IMG/VR virus record: IMGVR_UViG_3300023184_000035
Span: 62,001 to 126,000 of that record
Strand: one strand, 5' to 3'
DNA from: a virus
Length of the DNA: 64,000 nt
This document shows positions 4,352 through 60,687 of the stretch, piece by piece; position 1 is the first letter of the stretch, and each line of letters begins with the position of its first letter. The position numbers were made by a program, and so were the translations under genes. The notes beneath the pieces were generated by a model. The model saw only the letters and a list, made by a program, of their open reading frames with translations. It was not told the DNA's origin and made no database searches.

Positions 4352-4945
4352 GTGCCAAATTTAGTACCCATAGTTTTAGAACACACTGCCAAAGGTGAAC
4401 GCAGTTATGACATTTACAGTCGCCTGCTCAAAGATCGTGTGATCATGCTGGACACAGAAGTTTCAGAGCACTCAGCCAGTTTGATTGTGGCACAACTGCT
4501 GTTTTTGGAAGCAGACAATCCTGACAAGGACATTTCGCTGTATATCAACTCACCGGGCGGAAGTGTCACAGCAGGCATGGCCATTTACGACACCATGCAG
4601 TTTATCAAGTGCGATGTACATACCATTGTGATGGGGCAGGCCTGTAGCATGGGATCTCTGTTGGCACAAGCAGGTGCACCAGGCAAGCGTTACATGTTGC
4701 CCAATGCCAGACACATGATTCACCAACCGTCAGGCGGCGCACGTGGGCAAGCAACAGACATGTTGATTCAAGTGGAGGAAATTTTGTCCATGAAGAAAAA
4801 TTTAACAGGTATATATGTTAAACACAATTCAGCCAACAAAACCTTTGAACAACTCACAGCAGACATGGAACGTGACAACTTCATGAGTGCAGAACAAGCA
4901 GTTGCATACGGATTAGCTGACAAAGTTATAGAAAACCGTAAATGA
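4352..4945 (+). CDS. clpP: ATP-dependent Clp protease proteolytic subunit
   Basis: A full-length ClpP peptidase (197 residues, close to the usual 190-210). Motifs: [19 protein letters not shown], catalytic Ser99 in GQACSMG, His124 in MIHQPSGG and Asp175 in [11 protein letters not shown] at 4352 is chosen because AAGGAG lies 5 bases before it; the frame is open to an ATG at 4319, but that codon lies over the -10 region. ClpP forms tetradecamers and needs an AAA+ unfoldase (ClpA/ClpX), which the host would supply as none is seen here. Overlaps the next gene by ATGA. A phage-encoded ClpP could redirect host proteolysis or act in head assembly. Confidence 0.95.
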
Positions 4946-6222
4946 CCTTAAAAACTAATTTTTGCTCAAGTCCCTGGATTCACATGAGAATCACAAACTC
5001 GGGCAATTATGAGTTTTGTCGTTGGTCTGATGAGCATACCAATATCAACATACGTGAGCACACCCCACTAGAGTTTTTTCAAACGCACATGGCACCTGTT
5101 CGCAGTGCCATGTTGCAAGGTGAGCAGGTGCCTGCTTGCAAAGACTGCCGCCACATGGAGCAACGCCACAAGGTAAGTGGCCGTCAGCGGCAGTTGTTGA
5201 AAACTGGTATTGCTTTGGACAATTTTGAAAAGTCCATGCGCAGTAGCACATACTGGTCAGCATTTGCACAATCCAACTTTACCTCTGGCACAACTGATCT
5301 CAGTCCTGTGGATTGGCAAATTGATCTAGGCAACCATTGCAACAGTGGGTGCGTGTATTGTGCCCCAGAAAGTAGCAGTAGGCTCTCACAAGAATTTAAA
5401 AAATTAAAAATCTCACAGGCAGAACCAGCACCAAATTGGGCAACTGATCCAGAGTTGATAGATCAATTTGTTGCCTGTTTGACCAATACCAATCGACTGG
5501 CATACCTGCATTTTCTCGGCGGCGAAACCGTAATCACTCCAGCATTCAAGATCATACTAGAAAAACTCATTGCTGCCAAACTCAATCACAAAGTCAGCAT
5601 TGGGTTTACCACCAACTTGACTGTGTGGGACCAGGGCATTGTTGACTTGTTGACACAATTTGATCAAGTGCATCTGGGCATGAGTATTGAATGTTTTCAT
5701 GCTGTAAATGACTACGTGCGCTGGCCCAGCTCGATCAAATCAGTTGAGACCATGTTGTTGCAATGGATTGCATTGGGGCAACAGCACCGCTGGTACATGT
5801 CTTTGAGAACCACACCCACAGCACTGACCATACCTTACTTGATCACAGTGTATGATTTTGCACATCGGTACAATGTTGGGATTGAAAGTTGTAATTTTTT
5901 ACACAATCCAAAATTTCTTAGAATGAGTGTATTGCCCATGCAGTATCGGCAGGTGATTGCTGATCGAATACAAGCCTGGGTTGATCAACAAAATGTTTTT
6001 TCTACCACGCAATTAACCAATTTAAGAGACCCCAATCAACTGCATTTGCAAATCACACAAGATGCCATGAGTTATGTTGATTATTTGCGTACTGCCCCGG
6101 ATGAAACACATCTGCTGCCCGAATTGGTGGCATACTTGAAATTGCTTGAGTCCTCAAGATCCAACAGCATACTTGATTGTGAGCCCGAATATGAACACAT
6201 TCTCAGATCTGCAGGCTACTGA
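4942..6222 (+). CDS. Radical SAM protein, twitch-type, 426 aa
   Basis: The 4Fe-4S/SAM site is C-x3-C-x2-C at Cys133, Cys137 and Cys140 ([10 protein letters not shown]), followed by the SAM-binding FLGGE at 192-195. Four further Cys at 8, 26, 66 and 69 (FCSSPW, EFCRW, CKDCR) lie in the N-terminal part, as in the phage/bacterial 'twitch domain-containing radical SAM' family. Substrate is unknown; related SPASM/twitch enzymes modify peptides or small molecules. Its start overlaps the clpP stop (ATGA), implying translational coupling. One of three radical SAM genes in this window. Confidence 0.9.
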
Positions 6223-25312: not shown

Positions 25313-25784
25313 TCAAATTCCCACCATAACCATAGATGAACTAAGCGATCATCTCGATCATCTAACCAGTGGCGTCAGCACCGACACCATAACCTGGGGC
25401 AACAGCTCAATCTGGAGCACAACCGGAACAGTGGTACCGGGCTATGGTGCTGCTATTGGTGGTCAAAATGCTTACACCTACGCAACCAATACCACTAGCC
25501 CTTGGATTAGCGTTAGCAATGGTGGCACTGGGTCAATCAACCCCAGTGCCAGCATAGAAATCAAAGGCGAAGACGCTGACATCAAGATCAATGGCAAAAG
25601 CATGGTGACCTGGATGGAGGCGGTAGAAGAACGACTTAACATACTCACACCCAATCCTGAACTGGAAAAAGACTGGGATGACTTGCGCAGACTGGGGCAA
25701 CGCTACAGAGCCTTGGAAAAGAAATGCAAGGAAAAAGCACAGATGTGGGCGGCCTTGAAAAAAGTACAACCTCGACAACCATGA
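25296..25784 (+). CDS. Virion-type protein with helical C-terminus, 162 aa
   Basis: ATG at 25296. N-terminus MAITTDQIPTITIDELSDHL is followed by a Gly/Ser/Thr-rich, beta-like region, then EIKGEDADIKINGKSMVTW and a helix EKDWDDLRRLGQRYRALEKK. The last part matches a conserved helix in small virion-associated proteins of T4-like phages. Structural role inferred. Coupled to the radical SAM gene by ATGA. Confidence 0.66.
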   Translation: MAITTDQIPTITIDELSDHLDHLTSGVSTDTITWGNSSIWSTTGTVVPGYGAAIGGQNAYTYATNTTSPWISVSNGGTGSINPSASIEIKGEDADIKINGKSMVTWMEAVEERLNILTPNPELEKDWDDLRRLGQRYRALEKKCKEKAQMWAALKKVQPRQP

Positions 25785-27166
25785 GCACATGGGCAGAGTT
25801 TTACAATCAAATCCGAGATCCTGCATGGCCTGACTGCAAACAAGAACATCAGTTCTCACAACTACCCGAACATATTCAAAAAGAATGCTGTGAAGTATTT
25901 GGGTATGTTCCGGGTGCATTTAAAAAACAATCCAAGCTGCCCAATCGGGTGTTTCCAATCAACACAGCAACAGCTTGTCAGTTAAAATGGAACTGGAGCA
26001 CAATATATCTTACCACAGAAGACACAGCCAGTTGTCATAGAACCACTCATCATAAATTTGACACTGACACGTTTGATTTTCACAACACGCCTAGTAAATT
26101 GCAAGACCGGCGGCACATGTTGGCGGGCAAATGGCCCGAACATGGTTGCGAATACTGTCGTGATATAGAGCAGGCAGGTGGACAAAGCGATCGTATTACC
26201 AATTTGGACTTCCCAGGTATACATGCGCCTCCTGAGCTAGATCAAGATCCTGTGGCGGTTGATGTTACTCCTCGTATACTAGAAGTATATTTCGACAACA
26301 CTTGCAATTTAAAATGCCTGTACTGTGGTCCTCACTTTAGCAGTCTGTGGGACGCTGAAAACATTCGACATGGCGCTGGGGCATTTGCCAAGAGTGCCAA
26401 TATTGAAAGCAACAAACAAAAGATATTTTCTTGGTTGAGGCAACATGGGCACAACCTTACAGTGTTCAATATTTTAGGTGGCGAGCCACTGTATCAAGAC
26501 GAACTTGATCAATGCTTGGATTTATTTGAGCAGCATCCTGCACCCGAACTTAAATTACAAATATTTACAAATCTCAATGCCAAGTTGAGTCGTGTAAAAA
26601 ATTTAGTTGAACGTGTTAAACAATTGATTGATCAGAACAAACTGAGAGAATTTGAAATAACTGCCAGTTTGGATTGCTGGGGTACACCGCAAGAATATGT
26701 GCGATACCCATTGGATCTCTCTGTATGGGAAAAGAACTTTGAATACTTGGTAGACCAACCTTGGATAAATTTAATTATTAACTCCACAGTGACACCACTC
26801 ACTGTAAAAACTCTACCTGATTTACTGCAAAGAATAAATCAGTGGAGTACAACTAGAAAAATATATCACTATCAAAATTCTGTCAACGGCCCCAGTTACA
26901 TGTTTATTGACATATTTGGCGGAATTTTTCAAAATGATTTTGATCAAGCCCTGGCCATCAAGCCAACTAATACTCCAGAAGAACAATCTAGTACTCAGTA
27001 CTTGAAAGGCATTGCACAACAAAGTTTGCATCGTGGCCCCAACGTGCCTGAAATAAAAAAACTTTTTAATTTTTTAAACGAAAATGATCGTCGACGTAAT
27101 ACCAGCTGGTCCACGGTGTTTCCTTGGCTGGTTGAAGAATTTGTCAAATATGATCTAAAAATTTGA
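25781..27166 (+). CDS. Radical SAM protein, twitch-type, 461 aa
   Basis: ATG at 25781 overlaps the previous stop. C-x3-C-x2-C at Cys175, Cys179 and Cys182 (NTCNLKCLYC) binds the radical-generating cluster; NILGGEP follows. Extra Cys at 66, 85, 123 and 126 (HGCEYC) match the N-terminal site of the phage twitch-type family. An N-terminal 50 residues differ from the copy at 4942. Substrate unknown. Confidence 0.9.
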   Translation: MSTWAEFYNQIRDPAWPDCKQEHQFSQLPEHIQKECCEVFGYVPGAFKKQSKLPNRVFPINTATACQLKWNWSTIYLTTEDTASCHRTTHHKFDTDTFDFHNTPSKLQDRRHMLAGKWPEHGCEYCRDIEQAGGQSDRITNLDFPGIHAPPELDQDPVAVDVTPRILEVYFDNTCNLKCLYCGPHFSSLWDAENIRHGAGAFAKSANIESNKQKIFSWLRQHGHNLTVFNILGGEPLYQDELDQCLDLFEQHPAPELKLQIFTNLNAKLSRVKNLVERVKQLIDQNKLREFEITASLDCWGTPQEYVRYPLDLSVWEKNFEYLVDQPWINLIINSTVTPLTVKTLPDLLQRINQWSTTRKIYHYQNSVNGPSYMFIDIFGGIFQNDFDQALAIKPTNTPEEQSSTQYLKGIAQQSLHRGPNVPEIKKLFNFLNENDRRRNTSWSTVFPWLVEEFVKYDLKI

Positions 27167-27197: not shown

Positions 27198-28010
27198 ATG
27201 ATACCCAAAACACCTAAACAACGCATCAAACACATCGTCAAGTGGATCCAAGACTATGCTCGCAAAGCAAAGATTAATACCTTGGTGGTGGGTATTTCAG
27301 GCGGCATTGACAGCTCAGTTGTGAGTGCCTTGTGTGCTCGAACTGGCTTGAAAACCATTGTGGTACAAATGCCCATTCGCCAGAATAAGAAACTGGACAA
27401 CTTGAGTTCAGCACACGCAGGCTGGCTGTTGAATCATGTGCCCAGCTTCAGCATCACGCACATGATCATGGATTTGACCCCAGTGTTCACAGCATTTGAG
27501 AAAAAGCTCACACCTTTTGGCGACAGTGAACTGGCATTTGCCAACAGCAGAGCCCGACTGCGCATGATGACCCTGTATCAAATTGCACAGAGTCATGGTG
27601 GCATTGTGGTGGGCACAGGCAACAAAGTGGAAGATTTTGGCGTGGGATTCTTTACCAAGTACGGTGACGGTGGAGTGGATATCTCTCCCATTGGTGACTG
27701 TTTGAAAACTGAAGTCTGGGACATGGGACGAGAACTTGGCTTGCTCCAGGAGATCATCGATGCCCCGCCCACCGACGGACTCTGGGCCGATGACCGTAAC
27801 GACGAAGATCAACTGGGCATGAACTACCCTGAACTGGAACGCATGATGAGCATTGACTTTTTGAAGCGAGCCAAGATCGTGGATTCAGACATGCCTGGCA
27901 GCGCCAAACTCAATGCTGACGATCGAAAAAAATTAAAACGTTATCAAGAACTACGTGCTCAGAACATGCACAAGATGATGTCTATCCCTGTTTGTACAAT
28001 GCCCCGTTAA
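27198..28010 (+). CDS. nadE: NAD+ synthetase (ammonia-dependent)
   Basis: NadE converts nicotinate adenine dinucleotide and ammonia to NAD+ with ATP. The PP-loop SGGIDSS (34-40) binds ATP; RARLRMMTLY, GTGNKVEDFGVGFFTKYGDG and the PTDGLW...DEDQLGM region are family signatures. 270 residues matches the short ammonia-dependent form without a glutaminase domain. Own consensus promoter. It may maintain NAD+ during infection or counter host NADase defences (inference). No other NAD gene is in the window. Confidence 0.95.
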   Translation: MIPKTPKQRIKHIVKWIQDYARKAKINTLVVGISGGIDSSVVSALCARTGLKTIVVQMPIRQNKKLDNLSSAHAGWLLNHVPSFSITHMIMDLTPVFTAFEKKLTPFGDSELAFANSRARLRMMTLYQIAQSHGGIVVGTGNKVEDFGVGFFTKYGDGGVDISPIGDCLKTEVWDMGRELGLLQEIIDAPPTDGLWADDRNDEDQLGMNYPELERMMSIDFLKRAKIVDSDMPGSAKLNADDRKKLKRYQELRAQNMHKMMSIPVCTMPR

Positions 28011-28404
28011 CTACAATGTTAATGGCAAAAACACACCATTTTGACAGTTTTTTGACAGCCTTACAGCTAGATCAAATAAGTAAAAGTGGTGGTAGAACAA
28101 CACATTGCAATCTAATAGGATCTTCTACTGCTGATTGGTATCTTGTCCAATTGAATAAAACAAGTACCCGTGACACCAAAAGAGGTTTGTCCAAGCCAAA
28201 TTGGTGTTCGAAAGAGACTCTCGGAAAGTCTCTTCGTTGACAACTAGAATTGGACAGGCTCATTTCTCAGGACGCGAGCTTGTCCCAAACGAGTATGCCA
28301 AGGAGGCCCGAGGTCTATCTATGCTCATCTCAACTGCACTTTTGTCAACGTGATCTACTCGGGACTCCGCGTATAGCCACGTATTGGCAAGAAAAGGAAA
28401 TCAA
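28011..28404. other. Gene-poor interval with candidate structured RNA
   Basis: 394 bases without a convincing gene. Long-range and local complementarity is unusual: stem A 28144-28152 with 28248-28256 (9 bp); B 28173-28179 with 28201-28207 plus inner 28184-28188 with 28193-28197; C 28209-28219 with 28227-28236; D 28252-28261 with 28276-28285 (10 bp, one G-U); E 28235-28243 with 28342-28350 (9 bp); F 28282-28295 with 28356-28365 (10 bp, one bulge). A and D, and D and F, compete, so alternative folds are possible. See findings. Confidence 0.5.
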
Positions 28405-28980
28405 ATGAAAGTTAATACAAATCGGCCCAATGCATTGGCATCGTGGTCATCTCGAGTTATCAAACTACTGGGACTGTTTTTGGTCATGCTGGTGGTTTGG
28501 AATGTGTGCCAAAGCAGATTGGCCTCACTACGAAGCGACCGGGCAGCCGGCATGGTGGGCTATGTGTCAGCAGAAGACAAATTACGACAATTGGATTGCC
28601 TAACCCGCAACATCTACTGGGAAGCAGCCTCAGAGCCGTTTGAGGGCAAAGTGGCAGTGGCGCAGGTCACGTTAAATAGAGTAGAGAGCGGCAGATTTGC
28701 CAACACTGTGTGCGGTGTGGTCTATCAAAAGAACGTGTTCTATGAAAAGGTAGTTTGCCAATTCTCGTGGTTCTGCGAAGGCAATCACAAGGTCCGAGCA
28801 GTGTATCAGCCCATGTGGCAAGAAAGCGAACTAGTGGCCAAAAAAGTACTATTGGAGAACTTCCGATTGCCCGGCATGAAAAATGCGTTATACTATCATG
28901 CTGACTATGTAAATCCCAACTGGCACAAAGCCCGAATTGACAAAATTGGTCGTCACATCTTTTATGGAGAAAAATCATGA
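28405..28980 (+). CDS. SleB-like cell-wall hydrolase, 191 aa
   Basis: ATG at 28405 behind AAAAGGAAATCAA. A membrane anchor lies at about residues 19-36, then the SleB/hydrolase-2 domain: CLTRNIYWEAASEPFEGKVA with the conserved Glu pair, VAQVTLNRV, and CQFSWFCEG. The family cleaves peptidoglycan (lytic transglycosylase-like). Likely a phage endolysin with a signal-anchor. Next gene overlaps its stop. Confidence 0.88.
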   Translation: MKVNTNRPNALASWSSRVIKLLGLFLVMLVVWNVCQSRLASLRSDRAAGMVGYVSAEDKLRQLDCLTRNIYWEAASEPFEGKVAVAQVTLNRVESGRFANTVCGVVYQKNVFYEKVVCQFSWFCEGNHKVRAVYQPMWQESELVAKKVLLENFRLPGMKNALYYHADYVNPNWHKARIDKIGRHIFYGEKS

Positions 28981-29288
28981 ACGCCTGGCCCTTTAACTTA
29001 CAAATTGTTCGAGACTTTTTGAACAATCACCTGCACAAAATTTCAGCAGACACCCTGGGCTGGTTGGCAGCCATTGTGTTGCACTGTGCCACAATTCCTT
29101 CACTGCTGGCCTTGATGACTGGACTGAGTGATCGAGTGCCCAGCCTGGATGTGGTGGCGTTTCTTTGGGCAGGCCTAGTACTGCTGTTCCTGCGAGCCAT
29201 TGTGCTCAAAGATACCCTGAACATCATCACAATTGGTCTGGGGTTTATAGTGCAAGCCGGGCTCATGGCCCTGATCCTGTTTAGGTAA
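28977..29288 (+). CDS. Membrane protein, candidate holin, 103 aa
   Basis: ATG at 28977 (ATGA). Three hydrophobic stretches: about 26-48 (GWLAAIVLHCATIPSLLALM), 58-75 and 83-101. Size, topology and coupling with the wall hydrolase suggest a holin, though no sequence family was recognised. Followed by a hairpin and promoter. Confidence 0.72.
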   Translation: MNAWPFNLQIVRDFLNNHLHKISADTLGWLAAIVLHCATIPSLLALMTGLSDRVPSLDVVAFLWAGLVLLFLRAIVLKDTLNIITIGLGFIVQAGLMALILFR

Positions 29289-32747: not shown

Positions 32748-32966
32748 ATGGCCAAAGAAGAAACAATCAGCATGGAGGGCAAGGTTCAAGAAATCCTGCC
32801 CAACACCATGTTTAGGGTATTGCTGGACGATGTCAACACAGAAGTAATTGCATATCTATCGGGAAAAATGCGCACACACAACATCAAGGTGTTGCTGGGC
32901 GATAGAGTTGCTATGGAGTTCAGTCCCTATGATTTGACTCGTGGCCGTATCACACGCCGTAGATGA
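32748..32966 (+). CDS. infA: Translation initiation factor IF-1
   Basis: 72 residues, exactly the length of bacterial IF-1. [20 protein letters not shown], the S1/OB-fold strand pattern, [20 protein letters not shown] and the diagnostic end [14 protein letters not shown] are all present. IF-1 binds the 30S A site and tunes initiation with IF-2 and IF-3. A phage copy could bias translation towards phage messages. Follows the DUF2693-like gene by 7 bases; overlaps the next gene by ATGA. Confidence 0.95.
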
Positions 32967-58806: not shown

Positions 58807-58824
58807 AATAAGTAGTAGAGCACC

Positions 58825-60687
58825 ATGACAAACACAGTATTAATCAAACGTTCTGGCACAGCCAATTCAGTCCCGCTTGCAGGCAATCTGCAAGCGGGCG
58901 AGCTGGCCATCAACTATGCTGACGGCAATTTGTTCTTCAAGAACAGCGCAAACGTAGTAACTTTGATTGCCAGCACTCAATTTGTTTCAGTAGCTGGCAA
59001 CGTAACCGGCGGCAACATCACCACTGGCGGATTATTAACTGCCACAAATCAAATGGTGATTGTGGCGCCCAGCCCCACATCAGAAGGCGGTCAAATTGTT
59101 CTGGCCTGGGCCAACATATCAGGCATCACTGGACAGGCCAATTCAACTTGGAATTTGGATGTAGATTCCAGCAACAACTTCAGAGTATTCTCTCAAAATG
59201 CCACAGGCGTGGCAAATGTTGTTTTGAGTTTGAATTCTGCAAGTCAGGTGGCCAGTTTTGGGGGTAATGTCAGCGGTTCATATTTCATTGGTAACGGTTC
59301 AGCTCTTACTGGTATCACGGCCACAGCAGGTGCTGCCATCACCAACGGCACATCAAATGTCACAGTGGCCGCCAACAGCAATGTCACAGTAGGTGTAACT
59401 GGCACCACCGTTGCTACGTTTGCATCAACAGGTGAATACGTCACAGGATTGATCAGTGCTACTGGCAACGTGACCGGCAACTACATCTTGGGCAATGGTG
59501 CGTTGTTGACTGGTGTTATCACAAGTGTGGCCAACATCAATTTAGGAACCAGCAACGTCACTGTAGTAAGTTCAGGTGGCAATGTCACAGTAGGGGTGGG
59601 TGGCACTGGCAATGTGGCAGTGTTTGCTACTACTGGTGAATACGTCACAGGATTGATCAGCGCAAGCGGTAATATAACTGGTGGTAATCTAAATGCTGTG
59701 GGTTTGAGCCTAAGTTCAAACGTTGTATCTGCACTAGTGTCAGCAGCCAACATCACCACAACTGCCAATATCTCTGGTGGTTTTATACTGGGCAATGGGT
59801 CACAGTTGACTGGAATTGCCACCGGGAGCAGCACCAAAATATCCAACGGTACCAGCGAAGCCAACATTGGTACCAGTGCCGGCAATGCCAACATCACCAT
59901 TGGCGGTGTGTCAAATGTGGCAGTGTTTACCACCACAGGACTGAACATAACCGGCAACATCAGCGCATCAGGCAACATATCTTCGGGCCTGTTCTTTGGT
60001 GGCGGCAACATGGGCCTGGACACCGAAGCAGTCACACAGACGTTTAACTTTGGCAATCTCACTGCTGGGGTAGACACAATCTATGCCTTGAATGTGGTAA
60101 CTGCGCCAACTGACGCTGTGAACGGTGTCAACATCATTGACTACAGTATTGCCAATACCAAATTGGCCAACAGCATAGTGTTGACCACTCCCAACATTGG
60201 TGCTGCAACCGGCACCGGCCTAACTGTCACTGGCAATGTCAATGCTGCTGGTCTCACAGGCACCACAGCATCAGTCACAGGCACAGTATTTGCTGATAGA
60301 ATCACCACAGTGAGCGTCCCGCAGGTGCTGAATGACATCAGCAATCAATGTGATGGGGCAAAAATGATATTTCCTTTACAGGTTGATCAAAGCAACATCA
60401 CCTCAGCCAACATCACAGACAGCAAAAATCTGCAGGTGGCAGTGAGTGGCTTAGTGCTGTCGCCCTGGGTCAATACCCAAACCTGGCCCTGGTTCCAGAC
60501 TTTTGCTGGATTTCCTTTGCGCAGTCCTGGATATCGTGTGACTGCAGACGCAACTTCAGCAAACGTGACATTTTACCGATCTCCAGCACAAGGATCACAG
60601 GTAGTTCTCACCATCATAAATAATTCATCTACTGCACAATTAAGGAAATATCCATATAGTGCTACCACCATAGCACTGGGAGATTGA
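58825..60687 (+). CDS. Repeat-rich tail-fibre protein, 620 aa
   Basis: ATG at 58825. VLIKRSGTANSVPLAGNLQA, GELAINYADGNLFFKNSAN is paralogous to the start of the preceding fibre. Repeats of V-T-V-G-V-x-G-T and G-N-[IV]-T-G-x-Y follow. C-terminal 150 residues (LNDISNQCDGAKMIFPLQVD) resemble a domain found in T4-like cyanophage fibres. Adhesin role inferred. Confidence 0.87.
   Translation: MTNTVLIKRSGTANSVPLAGNLQAGELAINYADGNLFFKNSANVVTLIASTQFVSVAGNVTGGNITTGGLLTATNQMVIVAPSPTSEGGQIVLAWANISGITGQANSTWNLDVDSSNNFRVFSQNATGVANVVLSLNSASQVASFGGNVSGSYFIGNGSALTGITATAGAAITNGTSNVTVAANSNVTVGVTGTTVATFASTGEYVTGLISATGNVTGNYILGNGALLTGVITSVANINLGTSNVTVVSSGGNVTVGVGGTGNVAVFATTGEYVTGLISASGNITGGNLNAVGLSLSSNVVSALVSAANITTTANISGGFILGNGSQLTGIATGSSTKISNGTSEANIGTSAGNANITIGGVSNVAVFTTTGLNITGNISASGNISSGLFFGGGNMGLDTEAVTQTFNFGNLTAGVDTIYALNVVTAPTDAVNGVNIIDYSIANTKLANSIVLTTPNIGAATGTGLTVTGNVNAAGLTGTTASVTGTVFADRITTVSVPQVLNDISNQCDGAKMIFPLQVDQSNITSANITDSKNLQVAVSGLVLSPWVNTQTWPWFQTFAGFPLRSPGYRVTADATSANVTFYRSPAQGSQVVLTIINNSSTAQLRKYPYSATTIALGD

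Follow-up and report, generated by a model that had tools for sequence, protein, structure and literature searches.

A new family of structured RNA, a probable mRNA leader, directly upstream of a phage lysis hydrolase gene

A 394-base gap in a virus genome separates nadE (27198-28010) from a SleB-type cell-wall hydrolase gene (28405-28980), and it raises the question of whether the gap holds a structured RNA and what such an RNA would do for the gene that follows it. The stretch of DNA analyzed, hereafter the window, comprises 64,000 nucleotides of a 148,133-base virus record (IMG/VR record IMGVR_UViG_3300023184_000035). An original prediction, made from this sequence without database searches, had placed a structured RNA with competing folds at 28120-28372. 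No tRNA or tmRNA was found in the gap. The genes that follow it are:

28405..28980, + strand: endolysin gene of the SleB cell-wall hydrolase type, preceded by the RNA (Pfam PF07486, E 1.5e-25; phrog_938 endolysin, 2.5e-20)
28977..29288, + strand: gene for a small membrane-like protein, adjoining the hydrolase gene in most loci

The product of the second gene had no family match in Pfam and PHROG searches and, judging from its hydrophobic stretches, is possibly a holin. Radical-SAM-like proteins are encoded at 25724-27163 and 4942-6219 of the window.

We collected relatives of the locus through the hydrolase and nadE, which yielded 160 loci on IMG/VR contigs. The whole gap is 88-94% identical in ten locus entries, and others share only the core, at 72-75% identity. 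A pattern derived from the core found dozens more homologues, with chance matches removed by requiring a preceding hairpin, and a covariance model recovered the divergent members L052 and L066 (26 bits). The element-bearing set contains 85 locus entries, several of which are the same contig, and represents 54 distinct cores. A SleB-family open reading frame (ORF) lies directly 3' of the element in 85/85 entries and in further members found later wherever the flank is long enough to tell, with a variable gene upstream (nadE, a radical-SAM gene or a homologue of ORF 25221). Where SleB genes stand in tandem (L207:5520-6770, with the same spacing in L176), the RNA precedes the first only, and L237 has a distant SleB paralogue as its led gene. 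Whole-record searches of 24 RNA-bearing phages returned one full match per record, no further copy was found elsewhere in the window's own genome, and the records of relatives without the RNA held no copy above chance.

The element matched no established RNA. Rfam 15 scans of the window and its relatives returned nothing at or above the gathering threshold, with the best chance hits far below it, in agreement with the original prediction that the RNA lies outside known families. A nucleotide search of 50,697 phage records gave no match, GTDB genomes gave only two chance pattern matches, both without the rest of the element, and such a leader is undescribed in the open-access literature searched.

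Comparison of these homologues showed that the predicted interval does contain a real structured RNA but is too short, the element being 28083-28399. We infer its 5' end from a promoter motif and set its 3' end at the Shine-Dalgarno sequence of the hydrolase gene; the RNA itself is predicted from the motif to start at about 28089-28091. Its parts in the window are:

28076..28082, + strand: ATAAGTA, a late-promoter-like -10 element (TAAGTA is enriched before ORFs)
28083..28399, + strand: whole structured leader RNA, ~310 nt (nearest relatives 88-94% identical; homologues; covariation)
28092..28128, + strand: P0 helix, GUAGAA 28092-28097 with UUCUAC 28123-28128 (domain D1 in reduced form)
28134..28164, + strand: PK1 stem, AUUGG 28134-28138 with CCAAU 28147-28151 (pseudoknot equivalent in relatives)
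within 28134..28164, + strand: PK1 loop pairing, CUUGU 28142-28146 with ACAAG 28160-28164
28173..28207, + strand: P2 hairpin, ACACCAA 28173-28179 with UUGGUGU 28201-28207 (in the predicted MFE)
28212..28234, + strand: P1 hairpin, AAGAGAC 28212-28218 with GUCUCUU 28228-28234 (covariation)
28219..28313, + strand: PKa, P1 loop UCUCGG 28219-28224 with CCGAGG 28308-28313 (mostly invariant pairs)
28236..28349, + strand: Pb long-range helix, GUUGACAA 28236-28243 with UUGUCAAC 28342-28349 (covariation)
28252..28285, + strand: Pc hairpin, GGACAGGCUC 28252-28261 with GAGCUUGUCC 28276-28285 (compensatory change in L007)
28289..28319, + strand: GAGUAUGCCAAGGAGGCCCGAGGUCU, a conserved and mostly unpaired segment that includes the PKa 3' side (columns near-invariant in alignment A1)
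28370..28388, + strand: PK2 stem pairing, CGU 28370-28372 with ACG 28379-28381 (pseudoknot equivalent in relatives)
within 28370..28388, + strand: PK2 second pairing, GCC 28376-28378 with GGC 28386-28388
28394..28399, + strand: AAGGAA, Shine-Dalgarno of the hydrolase gene (AGGAG/GGGAG in relatives)

P2 has an inner stem and its loop contains UUUGUCCAA. The conserved unpaired segments of the family are GAUUACAAUCU in D1 and GAGUAUG..GGCCCGAGGUCU in the core domain D2. In the window's own version D1 is degenerate, PK2 is short and a hairpin present in relatives, Pe, is absent.

Compensatory changes exceed both shuffled and slid controls, demonstrating that this is a conserved structured RNA. Across the 54 cores, pairing in P1, PKa, Pb and Pe reaches 92.7% of cells; shuffles give 88.1% and slid controls 33-50%. 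Double-change cells number 81, versus 30.5 in shuffles; these shuffle counts are not probabilities and are inflated by relatedness, which the slid controls retain and nevertheless fail. P1 is paired in 98.9% of cells, two of its pairs showing double changes (21 and 24 cells), and PKa in 94.8%, its covariation support being weak because the pairs are mostly invariant. Pb is 88.7% paired in the same 54 sequences, with an end pair that occurs as A-U in 28, G-C in 15 and G-U in 11. Alignment A1 is unreliable in the Pc region and at the 3' end, and these regions were either counted apart or treated qualitatively; Pc in L007 carries the compensatory change GGACAGGGUC/GACCUUGUCC.

The flanking domains were counted in relatives outside the window's close group, in which D1 and PK2 are shorter. 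The 3' domain has 89 double-change cells versus 29.9 shuffled in 36 relatives, where stem 2 of the PK2 equivalent covaries at 5/5 pairs and stem 1 shows a C-G/G-C swap. D1 together with PK1 has 49 double changes versus 12.6 shuffled, with covariation in P0, the inner hairpin and PK1; the PK1 equivalent is 94.7-100% paired with 4 covarying pairs (25 relatives), and the P0 helix is 98.5% paired with 39 double changes versus 11.5 shuffled in 28 diverse relatives, an alignment outside which the window's own degenerate P0 falls. A CUCC/GGAG pairing is possible in many relatives, shows no double-sided change and is weak in the window.

Every complementarity named in the original prediction is present in the sequence, and 2/4 of its long pairings have evolutionary support. 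The 28235-28243/28342-28350 pairing, our Pb, combines near-invariant pairs with an end pair alternating between G-C and A-U (15 double changes), and 28252-28261/28276-28285, our Pc, is backed qualitatively by the change in L007 and by different pairable arms in other groups. By comparison, 28144-28152/28248-28256 finds no support beyond the nearest relatives, its first arm belonging to PK1, and 28282-28295/28356-28365 involves the conserved, probably unpaired GAGUAUG segment and is partly broken in the near relatives L003 and L092. Since the claim of competing folds depended on these last two pairings, it is not supported. One of the two local hairpins proposed, P1, covaries; the other, at 28173-28207, has altered arms in several relatives that, judged qualitatively, can still pair. 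PK1, PK2 and the loop pairing 28219-28224/28308-28313 had been missed, and the proposal of a pseudoknotted RNA is borne out by covariation in relatives. Folding of 28100-28404 is better than that of shuffled sequences, but only moderately so (z about -2.5, with 2/100 shuffles as good), and the minus strand behaves similarly to the plus strand in this comparison; folding energy alone is thus not decisive.

Conservation of the gap could in principle reflect an unrecognised short protein gene, and a frame does stay open for ~90 codons in a few relatives. One-frame translation of every member revealed stops and frame shifts from one-base indels with the nucleotides unchanged, such that REYGTEARGL in one member corresponds to ESMALRPEVL in the next. 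We rejected a coding explanation, to which we attach next to no credence, given that most relatives conserve the nucleotides yet interrupt or shift the frame, and that the helices covary; the original expectation of no conserved protein frame therefore stands.

The leader lies between a promoter-like motif and the Shine-Dalgarno of the hydrolase gene. In RNA-bearing phages the first helix starts 7-8 nt after the motif and the RNA ends at the Shine-Dalgarno, and in relatives without the RNA the motif (GAGTAAGTA or CTAAGTA) is followed 7-8 nt later by the hydrolase ATG, with no visible Shine-Dalgarno. Of all TAAGTA occurrences, 30% stand 3-15 nt before an ORF ATG (20% once the hydrolase region is masked), at a favoured spacing of 7-8 nt, versus about 5.5% for permuted 6-mers in the same test. 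The promoter assignment rests on this motif, and a clamp-loader protein encoded in the window would fit a T4-type late system. The window also encodes a phage translation initiation factor IF-1 at 32748-32960 (PF01176, E 8.4e-22), with ATAAGTA 4 nt before its ATG, an arrangement repeated in many relatives, and ATAAGTA at 58808-58827, 10 nt before the ATG of a 620-aa ORF at 58825, is another late-promoter candidate, whose leader would be very short. Many RNA-bearing loci additionally have a TTGACA-17-TATAAT promoter (11-12/12 matches), its distance upstream of the motif often being exactly 66 nt (in at least 17 of the RNA-bearing loci listed), and early transcription from it would extend into the lysis gene as well; the window itself is without one. 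In L248, L235 and L240, for example, this promoter is perfect and lies a constant 66 nt upstream of CTAAGTA.

The leader is modular, in that the same gene can be preceded by just the 5' domain or just the core. D1 alone, followed by a Shine-Dalgarno and the SleB gene, occurs on 11 contigs, and the core without D1 in L226, L184, L166 and the L099 group. Scripted sorting of 97 distinct hydrolases by leader gave 43 with the core, 36 in which the motif stands at the ATG, 7 D1-like and 11 other, with the D1 label applied loosely and with the second gene of tandem pairs being the one examined. On a tree of these hydrolases, many branches of which are weak, leader types are clustered (10 changes versus 43.7 shuffled), indicating that the leader is mostly inherited with its gene. 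L014, L017, L038 and L062 carry a different hairpin leader, of the CCCCTGAGAAAA ... TTTTCTGAGGGG type, followed by AGGAG and related SleB genes; this hairpin leader sits ~100 nt upstream of the hydrolase start.

The RNA is by far most likely a cis leader of the lysis gene, given its constant site directly before a single gene family and its extent from the promoter motif up to the Shine-Dalgarno. We hypothesize, with a probability of roughly 0.6, that the lysis-hydrolase mRNA of the phage begins with this RNA as a 5' leader, which acts in cis, has several domains and most likely sets or switches endolysin translation. We infer the transcription start, the control of translation, any signal sensed and the purpose, and envisage that transcription would start ~7-8 nt after the late-type motif ATAAGTA, with the mRNA beginning at P0. 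In the folded leader three parts would follow one another: a 5' domain (P0 in D1, with PK1 next), the core D2 (P1, PKa, Pb and Pc), and PK2 on the 3' side, whose end would lie 5-8 nt short of the Shine-Dalgarno; D1 and/or D2 may bind a small molecule or protein, and binding would alter PK2 and ribosome access, potentially holding back early lysis. A translation-controlling leader bound by a ligand or protein (riboswitch-like or protein-binding) appears most likely. As originally suggested, the RNA may be riboswitch-like: conserved unpaired segments are present, with no known aptamer matched. It is possible, though speculative, that D1 and D2 are two stand-alone sensing domains of a new tandem riboswitch class that times phage lysis by an intracellular signal. 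Nested folding, which ignores pseudoknots, gives no sign of a general masking of the Shine-Dalgarno (mean unpaired probability 0.41 versus 0.38 in shuffled leaders), and in nested folding the window's own Shine-Dalgarno has an unpaired probability of 0.87 and early and late transcripts do not differ there.

A predicted open Shine-Dalgarno in the window and several relatives would also suit a constitutive expression aid that senses nothing and instead insulates the Shine-Dalgarno, guards the 5' end of the late mRNA against RNases or provides a ribosome standby site, and leader-based regulation is not obligatory, since RNA-less relatives have a promoter motif at the ATG from which the gene starts. 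We regard such an aid as unlikely, as the conserved unpaired segments and three pseudoknots seem beyond what insulation needs. The long, ornate core, conserved in sequence and structure, might instead belong to a trans-acting phage small RNA, or a processed piece, sited here only through a shared promoter. This option, raised in the original prediction, is improbable because the RNA always lies directly 5' of a SleB-family hydrolase, spans the motif to the Shine-Dalgarno, and is replaced in relatives by the promoter motif at the ATG. A pseudoknot-rich fold with invariant unpaired bases could likewise suggest catalysis, by self-cleavage or otherwise, that would trim the lysis mRNA, but the ribozyme-like role once proposed found no Rfam ribozyme family match and no positive sign of a cleavage site, and we judge it very improbable.

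None of the T4 and methylophage systems compared here resembles the leader in layout. In T4 gene e (lysozyme), only the longer early transcripts form an inhibitory helix; late promoters inside the 5' strand of the helix give late mRNA without it (PMC3014915). Both cases involve a lysis-enzyme mRNA, a late promoter adjoining the gene and RNA structure near the ribosome-binding site, but they are unrelated in sequence, and in the present case the late mRNA would carry the ~310-nt RNA with its several pseudoknots, which is located downstream of the late motif. An early-transcript hairpin of the gene e type was rejected on this position and on the likeness of early and late folds at the Shine-Dalgarno. 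The T4/RB69 gene 32 leader also places a pseudoknot used in translational control in a phage mRNA leader, with a single pseudoknot bound by gp32 for autoregulation (PMC3014915), whereas the present RNA has three and precedes another gene. Methylophage Melnitz has a glutamine riboswitch next to ssrA, for which a lysis link was speculated (PMC9004378); it is likewise a structured regulatory RNA in an aquatic phage, but it belongs to a recognised riboswitch type, and the RNA described here has no family match and stands immediately before the endolysin gene. Like GOLLD, ROOL and other ornate metagenomic RNAs, which are large, elaborate and came from comparative genomics (PMC2864571, PMC12286853), this RNA was found comparatively, yet it is a different family, has no Rfam match and leads a single gene family.

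The leader is thus a real, new family of structured phage RNA, absent from Rfam and from the phage records searched and tied to a gene that ends infection. It opens a direct way to study how lysis may be timed in uncultured aquatic phages, and the same hydrolase gene with and without its leader offers a natural comparison.
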